Of a stretch of 23,455 bases of DNA, positions 10,287 through 14,560 are shown one piece after another. The stretch comes from a virus. The notes below the pieces were generated by a model that worked only from the letters and a program-made list of their open reading frames with translations, had not been told where the DNA came from and ran no database searches. The DNA is taken from positions 1 through 23,455 of the IMG/VR virus record IMGVR_UViG_3300009157_000046. One strand, 5' to 3'. Both the position numbers and the translations under genes were made by a program. Every line of letters starts with the position of its first letter. Position 1 is the first letter of the stretch.

Positions 10287-10298
10287 CGTGGCCCCATG
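10284..10298 (+). promoter_or_regulatory. Candidate leaderless promoter of the modification cassette
   Basis: TAACGT (10284-10289) fits TAnnnT and is followed by exactly 6 bases before the ATG at 10296. No Shine-Dalgarno sequence precedes this ATG. I see no convincing -35 at the standard distance, and the first three bases are the stop of the upstream gene, so this site is the weakest of the four leaderless candidates. Confidence 0.4.
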
Positions 10299-11036
10299 AC
10301 CTCAGCCCCGACGCAACGCCGCCTGGAGTACCTGCCGCTCCGCCAGATCATGAAGGCGCCCCGCAACCCCAACGGCCACGACCTCCCCGCCCTCGCCGCC
10401 TCGATCCGCCGGCACGGCTTCGTGGAACCAGTCGTGGTGGACGAGAGGACCGGGTTCCTGGTCGGTGGCCACGGCCGCCTCGACGTGCTCGCCGAGATGC
10501 GAGACGCCGGGGAGCATCCCCCGGAGGGCATCGTGGAGCAGGAGCGGACCGACCGGGTTCCCGACGACGCCCCGGTCGAGTGGCTGGCGCCGACAGTCCT
10601 GGGGTGGGCCAGCCGCTCAGACGCCGAGGCCGAGGCGCTGCTGCTCGCCATGATGCGCCTCCCCAAGCAGCCCGTCGCCGCCATCGACCTGTTGGCGACC
10701 ATGCTGGACGAGCTCTCAACGTCAACCGACCTCGCCCTGGAGGGCACCGGCTACACCGCCGACGACCTCGATGACCTCCTGGCTGGCCTGTCCGAGAGCG
10801 CACCCCTGGACGTGGCGTTCGGGACCAACCGTGACTCCTACCCGGAGCCCTCCTACGGGGAGCGCACCGAGAACTACCGCAACAAGCAGGTCCGGGCGAT
10901 GGTGTTCGACTACCCCCTGGACGATTACGCCCTGGTGGCCGAGATGGCGGCCAAGGCCCGCCCGGCCTTCGGCGTGCAGTCCAACGCTGAACTGTTCCAG
11001 AAGATGTTGCACGAGTGGGTCGAGGCCCACCCATGA
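10296..11036 (+). CDS. ParB-like nuclease-domain protein of the modification cassette
   Basis: 246 residues. The N-terminal ParB/sulfiredoxin-type domain shows LPLRQIMKAPRNPNGHD, then LAASIRRHGFVEPVVVDE and the hallmark GGHGRLDVLAEM (about 57-68), with GxxR spacing. Phage ParB-like proteins of this type are often found next to DNA methylases or other base-modification enzymes and may give DNA targeting or CTPase/nuclease activity. The C-terminus (about 200-246) contains KQVRAMVFDYPLDDYALVAEM, a tail seen in many such phage proteins. It starts the five-gene modification run and is ATGA-coupled to the dioxygenase. Confidence 0.75.
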   Translation: MTSAPTQRRLEYLPLRQIMKAPRNPNGHDLPALAASIRRHGFVEPVVVDERTGFLVGGHGRLDVLAEMRDAGEHPPEGIVEQERTDRVPDDAPVEWLAPTVLGWASRSDAEAEALLLAMMRLPKQPVAAIDLLATMLDELSTSTDLALEGTGYTADDLDDLLAGLSESAPLDVAFGTNRDSYPEPSYGERTENYRNKQVRAMVFDYPLDDYALVAEMAAKARPAFGVQSNAELFQKMLHEWVEAHP

Positions 11037-12034
11037 CCGACCTCGGCACCGCCCCCGCCGTCACCGTCGTCCTGCCGCCGCTTGACCCCGACGCCCGAGT
11101 GCGGGCCGACAAGCTCGTCCGCCAGGGCGCCCCAGCCGAGCCTGACGGAGCGATCATCAAGGCCCCGTGCCTCGTGAAGGCCGGTGACGAGACCGTGGCC
11201 GTGGTCTTACGGCTCCCGCCAGGCCAGCTCGCCTACGCCCGCAGATCCTTGTTGGCTTGGCCGTTCGACACCTCGGCAATGCGGGCGTCAGGTATCAGAT
11301 CAAACAGCCGAAGCTTTGGGTATCTCGCCCGGCGGACGGTGCTGCAGCGGGATGGCTGCCGGGCCTGTCAGGGCTCGCATAAGTCCCCTGATGCCCACGA
11401 TGGAATCGTCGCCCAGGCCGCTGTCCTGTCGGCCATGTTCGCCGCCGCCGCCCCGGACCTCGCCGCCCGAGACGAGGAGGCCGCTCAGATCGTTCGTCCC
11501 GAATGGCGCCTGGGCGGCAGCCAGTGGACCTCCGGCATCGCCAACAGCACGTCCGTCCTGCCGTACCACTACGACCGCAACAACCTGAAGCCGATTTGGT
11601 CGGCGATGATCGTGGTGCGCCGGGGCGTCCGGGGCGGCTACCTCCACGTGCCCGAGCTCGGCGCCTCGTTCCAGTGCCGGGACGGTGACGTGGTGTACTT
11701 CCCGGGCTGGCGCTTCGTGCATGGCGTGACCCCGGTCAAGGTGATCGAGCCCGACGGCTACCGCATCTCCGCCGTGTTCTACGCCGTGGCGTTGATGCGA
11801 GAATGCCTTGCCCCCGAGGAGGAGATGGCCCGAGCTCAGCGGGGTCGGACCATCAGAGAGGCTGACACTCGGGGGGCGATGGACCGCCCGAACCTCGGCC
11901 ACTACATCGAAGCCTACGACAAGCGCAAGTCGGGGTGGCTGCTGTGCGCCTGCGGCCATCGGGCCGAGCTCCACCAGACCCCCGACCAGCGCTGCGCCAC
12001 GCCCCACTGCGAGTGCGACGGTTGGACCGAGTGA
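11033..12034 (+). CDS. TET/JBP-like 2-oxoglutarate/Fe(II) dioxygenase acting on DNA bases
   Basis: 333 residues, ATG in the ATGA overlap. The double-stranded beta-helix has H179-Y-D181 (LPYHYDRNN), then GGYLHVPELGASFQCRDGDVVYF, H230 (FVHGVTP) and R244 (YRISAVF). This gives the iron triad HxD...H plus the 2-oxoglutarate arginine. The upstream SRSFGYLARR and RDGCRAC segments (92-112) are typical of phage TET/JBP proteins. JBP enzymes oxidise thymine to hydroxymethyluracil; TET enzymes oxidise 5-methylcytosine. The C-terminus (305-328) adds a zinc module CxCGH....H...C....CxC. The kinase and transferase-like neighbours favour thymine as substrate, but cytosine is not excluded. Residues about 59-128 use atypical codons. 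Confidence 0.8.
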   Translation: MTDLGTAPAVTVVLPPLDPDARVRADKLVRQGAPAEPDGAIIKAPCLVKAGDETVAVVLRLPPGQLAYARRSLLAWPFDTSAMRASGIRSNSRSFGYLARRTVLQRDGCRACQGSHKSPDAHDGIVAQAAVLSAMFAAAAPDLAARDEEAAQIVRPEWRLGGSQWTSGIANSTSVLPYHYDRNNLKPIWSAMIVVRRGVRGGYLHVPELGASFQCRDGDVVYFPGWRFVHGVTPVKVIEPDGYRISAVFYAVALMRECLAPEEEMARAQRGRTIREADTRGAMDRPNLGHYIEAYDKRKSGWLLCACGHRAELHQTPDQRCATPHCECDGWTE

Positions 12035-12942: not shown

Positions 12943-14009
12943 CCCCCGAGGAGGCCGCCCGCTTCATGAACGCCTACGCCCGCCGTCACGCCGCCGGGGC
13001 GTTCGCCACGCCGACGGCCGCAGAGCTCGGGGGCGCCAACGTCCGCCTGTGGGAGGACAGCGAGGGGCGCCGCACGGTGGCCGTGGTGAAGCGCCTGACC
13101 CGGGACAGCGTGCGGACCGACTGGCTCGGGGAGCCGTACACGCTGCCTCGTGGGGCTGTCATCGTCACCCACCTCGCCCGGGATGACGGCGCCCCCGTGC
13201 CCGCCGACCTGGACGAGTACCACGCCGTGTTCGGCTACGCCGACGACCCGGAGCTGACCGCCGGGATGCTCCGCTGGGGCCGGGAGCGGATGGCCACGAG
13301 GATCAGCGCCGCCTCCGAGATCATCACGTGCTGGGGGTGGCAGGGCACCGGCCGCCCGACCCCCGGGCCCGACGGCGCCACGGTGGTGCCGTTCGCCGAC
13401 GTGTCCGAGGGCATCTTCGCTGACGCCCTCGCCGAGCTCGCCCACGTCTCGGGGTGGGCCGACGACTACCCGTACTACAACCGGGACGGCTCCTGGTCGG
13501 CCCTGTCGCTGCGTGGGTTCGATCCCGACCCGGCCTGGGGCGTGAAGCCCGCCGAGATGGGCCGCAAGTGGAACGACGCCCACCCGGGAGCTCTGACCCG
13601 CACGTGCGTGTGGACCGACCTCGCCGACCGATGCCCCATCATGCGGGCGCTCGCCGAGGCGCTGCCGTGCCGAGGGCTTGAACGGGTGCGCCTGATGCGC
13701 ATGACCCCCGGGAAGCTCCTCCGGCACACCGACATCACCGACAAGGCCAGCGGCCTCCGTGACGGGCAGATCGCCCGCTTCCACCTCCCCCTGGTCACCA
13801 ACCCCCAGGCCGTCATGCACAACTGGGAGCTTGACGGCACCTGCTCGGACACGCACCTGACCGCCGGGACGTGGTGGTACCTGGACGCCCGCAAGCCCCA
13901 CGCCGTCACCCAGGGCGGCACCACCGACCGCATCCACCTCGTGGCGGACGTGCTGTGCGCCCCGTCCACCCGTGACCTTCTGGAGGCCGCATGCTCGGCT
14001 GCTACCTGA
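12939..14009 (+). CDS. Second 2OG/Fe(II) dioxygenase, Asp/Asn beta-hydroxylase type, with extra N-terminal domain
   Basis: 356 residues, ATGA-coupled. The C-terminal half (about 240-345) carries GKLLRHTDITD (H263, D265), RFHLPLVTN, AGTWWYLDARKPHAV (H321) and R331 (DRIHLVADV). This is the aspartyl/asparaginyl hydroxylase-like jelly roll with the complete iron and 2-oxoglutarate residues. The first 150 residues form a separate alpha/beta domain of unknown identity (VAVVKRLTRDSVRTDWLG, HAVFGYADDPELTAGMLRW). An acetyltransferase-like fold is one possibility, not established. Its place between the transferase-like gene and the kinase suggests it hydroxylates the adduct on the base, or the donor molecule. 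A protein substrate is the alternative. Confidence 0.7.
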   Translation: MTPEEAARFMNAYARRHAAGAFATPTAAELGGANVRLWEDSEGRRTVAVVKRLTRDSVRTDWLGEPYTLPRGAVIVTHLARDDGAPVPADLDEYHAVFGYADDPELTAGMLRWGRERMATRISAASEIITCWGWQGTGRPTPGPDGATVVPFADVSEGIFADALAELAHVSGWADDYPYYNRDGSWSALSLRGFDPDPAWGVKPAEMGRKWNDAHPGALTRTCVWTDLADRCPIMRALAEALPCRGLERVRLMRMTPGKLLRHTDITDKASGLRDGQIARFHLPLVTNPQAVMHNWELDGTCSDTHLTAGTWWYLDARKPHAVTQGGTTDRIHLVADVLCAPSTRDLLEAACSAAT

Positions 14010-14560
14010 TCGGCTCCCCCGGGGCTGGCAAGTCCACCCTCATGACCGAACTGACCCGGGGCCTGCCGTTCATCGAGGGCAAGGTCGGCCTGGTCGCCTT
14101 CAAGCACTACCGGGACGCCGACGGCCGCACCGTGGCGGCAGAGCTCGGGGCGCCCCACCCCCTGTTCCCCGGCACGGACCGCCTCTCGATGGCTGTCAGC
14201 CCCGACGCCATCGCCTGGGTGCAGGCGGCCCCCGCCCCCGTGGTCATCGGCGAGGGCGACAGGCTCGCCACCCGCCCGTTCCTGGAGGCGTTCGCCGAGG
14301 CGTGCGATGGGGGCTTCACGCTGCTCTGGCTCGACACTCCCGAGAACACGGCCCGGGCCCGCTCCGCCGCCCGGGGGACCGCCCAGAACGAGGGGTGGCA
14401 GAAGGGGCGCCGCACCAAGGTCAACAACCTGGCCGCCGCTCTCCCCCACGTCCGCCTCGACGGCACCATGCGCCCCGAGGTTCTGGCTGAGCACGCCCGG
14501 GCCGCCTCCCCCGCCCTCCAGGCTCTGGGCAGGCTCGCCCGGGTAGACGGCGCAGCCTAA
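13991..14560 (+). CDS. P-loop kinase, 5-hydroxymethyluracil DNA kinase-like
   Basis: 189 residues, ATG overlapping the dioxygenase by 19 bases. Walker A GSPGAGKST (8-16), the FPGTDRLSM segment (59-67), a Walker-B-like strand VVIGEGDRL (84-92) and a LID-like basic segment NEGWQKGRRTKVNNLA (133-148) match the nucleotide-kinase-like P-loop proteins linked to DNA base hypermodification. Characterised relatives phosphorylate 5-hydroxymethyluracil in DNA, giving the activated ester that the transferase uses. It ends at a TAA that is itself part of the P3 operator. A free-nucleotide kinase is the alternative, but the gene context favours the DNA kinase role. Confidence 0.75.
   Translation: MLGCYLIGSPGAGKSTLMTELTRGLPFIEGKVGLVAFKHYRDADGRTVAAELGAPHPLFPGTDRLSMAVSPDAIAWVQAAPAPVVIGEGDRLATRPFLEAFAEACDGGFTLLWLDTPENTARARSAARGTAQNEGWQKGRRTKVNNLAAALPHVRLDGTMRPEVLAEHARAASPALQALGRLARVDGAA

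Follow-up and report, generated by a model that had tools for sequence, protein, structure and literature searches.

A phage five-gene cassette predicted to hypermodify thymine in DNA and to pair an amino acid:DNA transferase with a second oxygenase

The five-gene set of Rhodococcus phage Tonitrus has been described in print as hypermodifying thymine (PMC11955845), and the hypermodification of Pseudomonas phage M6 works from the nucleotide pool (PMC6449724). In kinetoplastids, the TET/JBP enzymes JBP1 and JBP2 act on thymine in DNA on the way to base J, which is glucosylated. Here we analyse a cassette at positions 10296–14560 of a 23,455-base viral fragment (an IMG/VR virus record, hereafter the window), which encodes a ParB-like protein, a TET/JBP oxygenase (TET), an amino acid:DNA transferase (ADDT), a second 2-oxoglutarate (2OG)-Fe(II) oxygenase (OXY2) and a P-loop kinase. 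We consider it likely that this cassette of a lytic phage hypermodifies thymine in finished DNA, passing from thymine through 5-hydroxymethyluracil (5hmU), phosphomethyluracil and aminoacyl-thymine to an oxidised aminoacyl-thymine. As in base J synthesis, a TET/JBP enzyme is predicted to act on thymine in DNA, but here an amino acid, not glucose, would be attached.

The same gene order is found in gp1–gp5 of Mycobacterium phage LilMcDreamy (NC_051582), whose ADDT, OXY2, kinase and TET are 54%, 42%, 35% and 34% identical to those of the window, respectively, and whose kinase gene, unlike the window's, abuts the large terminase gene. Tonitrus and Gordonia phage Wooper, like the window, carry ParB, TET, ADDT (aGPT-Pplase2) and kinase in one run, there at the genome start; however, their fifth enzyme is nucleotide-binding oxidoreductase-like and follows the kinase, whereas the window's is a 2OG oxygenase, and their ADDT belongs to the other clade (26–29% identical to the window's). 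The arrangement is thus not new in kind, given the order in LilMcDreamy and the published sister set. In Pseudomonas phage PaMx11, the glycinyltransferase (8z2m) has the ADDT fold over its full length, and the logic of a transferase followed by a tailoring oxidase is shared, with the PaMx11 lyase (8z2o) replaced in the window by a 2OG oxygenase. The functions of these two PaMx11 enzymes are those given in PDB titles. TET stands in place of the nucleotide-pool hydroxymethylation that PaMx11 presumably uses. M6 gp51 is an ADDT (PF18724) in the same PHROG as the window protein, and gp54 shares PHROG 800 with the window kinase but belongs to HMUDK (PF18748). M6 also has a thymidylate-synthase-type gene, unlike the sister phages of window-type cassettes, together with pyridoxal phosphate (PLP) and radical-SAM (S-adenosylmethionine) tailoring and a helical-domain protein (PF18723), with no TET annotated in the stretch examined.

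Conserved order and the transferase–oxidase pair

Relatives were gathered from viral contigs in scans that used one alignment and, separately, three individual proteins. Some of the 35 OXY2 loci are near-copies, and others encode an OXY2 just 40–55% identical to the window's. The kinase lies directly downstream of OXY2 in 35 of 35 loci, ADDT directly upstream in 29 of the 30 with room for it, and TET is found in 24 of the 25 with room. This conserved order far exceeds chance. The nearest relatives, L008 and its copies, encode five proteins 61–81% identical to the window's, flanked by the same helicase and DUF932 genes, and in L036 a natural TET–ADDT fusion forms a single 610-residue frame (L036:2623-4452). 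Two other layouts were seen: a tandem pair of TET genes upstream of ADDT and OXY2 (L031:1342-3020), and a locus without ADDT, where a single open reading frame (ORF) matches the TET end and, after it, the C-terminal portion of OXY2 (L071:4596-5453), which may reflect a deletion, a chimera or an assembly error.

In the window, all five ORFs were found on the + strand, chained by overlaps (ATGA at 11033, GTGA at 12031, ATGA at 12939, then 19 nucleotides at 13991–14009; Table 1). The overlapping five-gene run originally described is borne out by these frames, by family matches and by the conserved order, the latter two of which rule out chance ORFs.

Sister cassettes occur in cluster B mycobacteriophages and in Gordonia, Rhodococcus and Microbacterium phages. 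TET, ADDT and the kinase are retained in Phelemich, Wooper, Tonitrus and Kozie, where a flavin or nucleotide-binding oxidoreductase replaces OXY2, lying between ADDT and kinase (like OXY2) in Phelemich and Kozie and after the kinase in Wooper and Tonitrus. The Kozie and Phelemich enzymes match a flavin-dependent lyase (8z2o/8z79; 3.5e-4 and 5.7e-4), and those of Wooper and Tonitrus give weak Rossmann-type matches only. Serendipitous has, between TET and kinase, a TET-associated glycosyltransferase and a PIG-L deacetylase in the place of the tailoring enzyme (L022:1773-3091); Zemanar has ADDT and no oxidase. These variable gene sets therefore point to TET as a common first step, followed by tailoring that differs between cassettes.

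Trees were built from 12 cassettes with a defined oxidase, just four of them with flavin-type sequences, and the oxidase groups were set from gene content before the tree tests, but after identities had been seen. The ADDT tree splits exactly by partner oxidase, 2OG versus flavin (support 100/100); this split is rejected by the TET tree (approximately unbiased test, p = 8.95e-45) and the kinase tree (6.4e-6), on each of which the partner-oxidase character needs four changes. Likewise, the LilMcDreamy TET is 71% identical to that of Wooper, while for the LilMcDreamy ADDT the identity is 28% with Wooper and 54% with the window. ADDT and oxidase appear to have been exchanged together as a matched pair, presumably because the group added by the transferase is the substrate of the oxidase, although the pairing is limited by a third ADDT subtype (L059, L060, L062, L065–L067) that also accompanies OXY2.

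Table 1. Genes of the cassette in the window
Product	Length (residues)	Position	Strand	Family match
ParB-like protein	246	10296..11036	+	PHROG 620 (E 5.7e-23), PHROG 723 (1.4e-19)
TET/JBP 2OG-Fe(II) oxygenase	333	11033..12034	+	PF12851, Tet_JBP (E 1e-9)
ADDT/AADT amino acid:DNA transferase	303	12031..12942	+	PF18724 (E 1.6e-6)
OXY2, Asp_Arg_Hydrox-family 2OG-Fe(II) oxygenase	356	12939..14009	+	PF05118 (E 2.3e-8)
P-loop nucleotide kinase (Ploopntkinase3)	189	13991..14560	+	PF18751 (E 4.6e-29)

Active sites of the predicted enzymes

Curated Pfam cut-offs are exceeded by TET (38.3 bits against 34.9), ADDT (28.5 against 26.2; M6 gp51 scores 159.6), OXY2 (34.5 against 22.6) and the kinase, but not by the ParB-like protein, whose Pfam ParB_N value is just 0.18, yet which is clear in PHROGs and has the Srx/ParB-type motif GGHGR. 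Its gene comes first in most sister cassettes, and its predicted role is accessory or targeting. Profile searches thus placed the proteins starting at 12031 and 13991 in PF18724 and in PF18751 with PHROG 800, rather than in unrelated families.

The TET residues H179, D181 and H230 (iron triad) and R244 (2OG-binding), named in the original prediction, are indeed invariant in 15 aligned rows that are 30–69% identical to the window, and the PDB match is a Naegleria Tet-like dioxygenase (5.4e-4). The protein terminates in a Cys/His-rich tail (window:11930-12031; CACGHRAELHQTPDQRCATPHCEC), absent from aligned relatives and possibly zinc-binding.

The AlphaFold model of ADDT (predicted local distance difference test, pLDDT, 91.7) is all-helical, and its top three Foldseek hits, which are all of its significant PDB matches, are the PaMx11 5-phosphomethyl-2'-deoxyuridine glycinyltransferase (8z2m/8z2n; TM-score 0.66–0.72 across ~300 columns). 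The third protein, first described as aGPT-PPlase/AADT-like, accordingly keeps its place in the ADDT/AADT family, but pyrophosphorylase families were not matched. Sixteen positions, E91-R92-R93, E228-T229 and C232 among them, are common to the window, M6 gp51 and both ADDT clades; with gp51 the window also conserves G152xG154, G240 and Y242. In a near-identical contig (L044:4096-4995), the otherwise conserved E91 is changed to K, which might mark an inactive allele or an error in sequencing. Flavin-type and M6 ADDT share two motifs, W...K (positions 156 and 160 in window numbering) and DxDP (23–26), of which W...K is also seen in the PaMx11 sequence. The window lacks this glycine-type W...K and has Q156 and E160 instead, as does every OXY2-paired row of its subtype, with DxEP in place of DxDP. 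We read the change as a different substrate, not as exclusion from the wider ADDT family, and the amino acid attached by OXY2-type ADDT is probably not glycine. The third, divergent subtype carries the motif GRMGHWCFSE.

In OXY2, the iron triad (H263xD265 and H321) and R331 are invariant in 43 rows, and the predicted model has a pLDDT of 85.2. The nearest PDB entry is L-proline cis-4-hydroxylase (2.5e-5 by profile, 6e-10 by Foldseek); a nucleoside-antibiotic hydroxylase, proline 3-hydroxylase and AspH come next. The closest relatives of known structure thus have amino acids as substrates (the proline hydroxylases) or belong to a nucleoside-antibiotic pathway, and an amino-acid moiety, before or after transfer, would suit OXY2 as its target. 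The kinase has the Walker A motif GSPGAGKS, and its alignment with M6 gp54 (hhalign probability 89.6, E 1.9e-6) stems partly from the P-loop itself. With its family matches and intact active sites, the cassette looks functional and is of a known kind.

Starting base, kinase and timing of the second oxidation

Thymine in DNA is most likely the TET substrate, because no C5-methyltransferase or thymidylate-synthase family was found in sister phages. PF00145 C5-methyltransferases are absent from all 13 complete sister phages, ten of which have TET, and from the 51.8 kb nearest relative; in a search confined to the thymidylate-synthase family PF00303, none of 27 records has it. A ThyX-like gene is present in one sister phage, Margaery, and ThyX is not known to be a hydroxymethylase. 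The PF00303 result disfavours a nucleotide-pool route to 5-hydroxymethyldeoxyuridine. Of the two starting bases first proposed, thymine is hence borne out as the likely one, and oxidation, activation and conjugation after replication, without a hydroxymethyl-deoxyuridine triphosphate pool, are supported.

Several observations weigh against this thymine pathway. The window itself is a fragment, 23 kb long, and the metagenomic relatives L032 and L039 do encode a PF00145 methylase. TET could instead oxidise 5-methylcytosine, made by a methyltransferase outside the fragment or in the host, with kinase and ADDT decorating 5-hydroxymethylcytosine; phage TET enzymes active on 5-methylcytosine have reportedly been published. 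Serendipitous, moreover, joins this TET with a TET-associated glycosyltransferase, a family tied to modified cytosine in T6-like phages (2026 paper, PMC13390438). Against the PF00145 absences listed above, and an ADDT whose fold match and characterised relatives work on 5-substituted deoxyuridine, such a cytosine pathway appears very unlikely. Concerning the second oxidation, the Foldseek TM-scores of OXY2 against proline hydroxylases are modest (~0.3–0.5), and the Q...E versus W...K difference in ADDT may be plain clade divergence. OXY2 might also work before transfer on the free amino acid, as its closest solved structure does, or further oxidise the base itself; however, the sister flavoenzymes in the same role resemble a lyase whose substrate is the conjugate already on DNA, which makes an action other than tailoring of the conjugate somewhat unlikely and supports the second oxygenase of the original prediction as a late-acting enzyme.

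The predicted phosphorylation of 5hmU in DNA by the kinase is the least certain step of the thymine pathway. The window kinase falls in PF18751, and PF18748, the M6 gp54 family, is not among its matches; what stands of its description as hydroxymethyluracil-DNA-kinase-like is a P-loop kinase sharing PHROG 800 with gp54, and what does not is the Pfam family, which is Ploopntkinase3. The family also occurs in phages without TET, ADDT or PF00303, and the kinase is found in 388 phage records against 89 for TET. Apizium, Saguaro and Vincenzo have the kinase but lack both TET and ADDT, and in KayaCho, Nigel and Margaery TET and kinase occur with no ADDT or oxidase, so the enzymes are separable. That close relatives of the kinase persist where TET and ADDT are both missing weakens the idea of a dedicated 5hmU kinase, and a second role, or another 5hmU source in TET-less phages, is possible. 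The kinase could even lie outside the pathway, as a packaging-linked P-loop protein that is a neighbour by chance: in cluster B phages its gene immediately precedes that of the large terminase, its database label is terminase small subunit, and it also occurs where TET and ADDT are absent, in Saguaro beside 7-deazaguanine genes. In the window, however, the gene overlaps that of OXY2, with the terminase 7 kb away, kinase follows OXY2 at every one of the 35 loci, and a 5-hydroxymethyldeoxyuridine DNA kinase of PF18748, M6 gp54, belongs to the same PHROG; we regard a chance neighbour as distinctly unlikely.

Further observations concern these kinases and their names. Ploopntkinase3 genes adjoin the large terminase gene in phages lacking TET and ADDT (L021:10-564, L019:4221-4769 and L018:2559-3149); among such phages, one has 7-deazaguanine genes and one a PLP-enzyme gene beside ParB. 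The deposited LilMcDreamy names (queuine tRNA-ribosyltransferase, hypothetical, terminase small subunit) mask the system, and the first and last of these are given to TET and kinase at L001:855-1787 and L001:3761-4333 and in many RefSeq cluster B phages, a misnaming that apparently spread from the labels of PHROG 6059 and PHROG 800. M6 gp54 is likewise labelled terminase small subunit.

The window has a G+C content of ~71% and also encodes an AAA ATPase, an IstB/DnaC-like protein, HNH and VRR-NUC proteins, a helicase, DUF932 and a large terminase. At window:16185-16982 it encodes a Thr/Pro-rich protein with a signal-like N-terminus and an LPXTG-type anchor match, which is odd for a phage region. 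Its DNA gave zero megablast matches in 50,697 phage records. Among 84,980 genomes of bacteria and archaea, pattern searches with OXY2 and ADDT returned zero relatives and so pointed to no host, as would be expected of a trait specific to phages.

Predicted pathway and its meaning

In the thymine pathway that we favour, TET would hydroxylate the thymine methyl group to give 5hmU, as its family, residues and gene content suggest, and the P-loop kinase would phosphorylate the new hydroxyl. Through ADDT, an amino-acid amine would then displace the phosphate to yield aminoacyl-methyl-uracil, a step suggested by the family and by the fold match to the PaMx11 glycinyltransferase. Gene replacement and co-segregation with ADDT suggest that OXY2 would oxidise the attached amino acid, as the sister flavoenzyme presumably does. 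The product would be a hydroxylated aminoacyl-thymine or, should hydroxylation hit the carbon beside the nitrogen, 5-aminomethyluracil by collapse. The ParB-like protein probably aids enzyme binding or movement on DNA, and the modified base would shield phage DNA against host nucleases.

We see an even chance that the product is a base not yet described: a TET-hydroxylated thymine bearing a non-glycine amino acid, attached by the ADDT subtype with its changed substrate motif, with this amino acid then oxidised by a 2OG oxygenase in place of the sister systems' flavin lyase. A literature search that did not extend to Iyer 2013 gave no mention of an Asp/Asn-hydroxylase in a cassette of this type, and a 2OG-oxygenase branch of this known cassette kind is apparently new within the literature covered.

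LilMcDreamy, grown on M. smegmatis, offers a cultivable case for both a new hypermodified base and a thymine-directed phage TET. The analysis also corrects misleading database names across many actinobacteriophage genomes. That transferase and oxidase are apparently inherited as a pair suggests a modular code: conjugate and tailoring enzyme would be swapped together on a shared TET/kinase chassis, and such a code would allow phage bases to be predicted from gene content.

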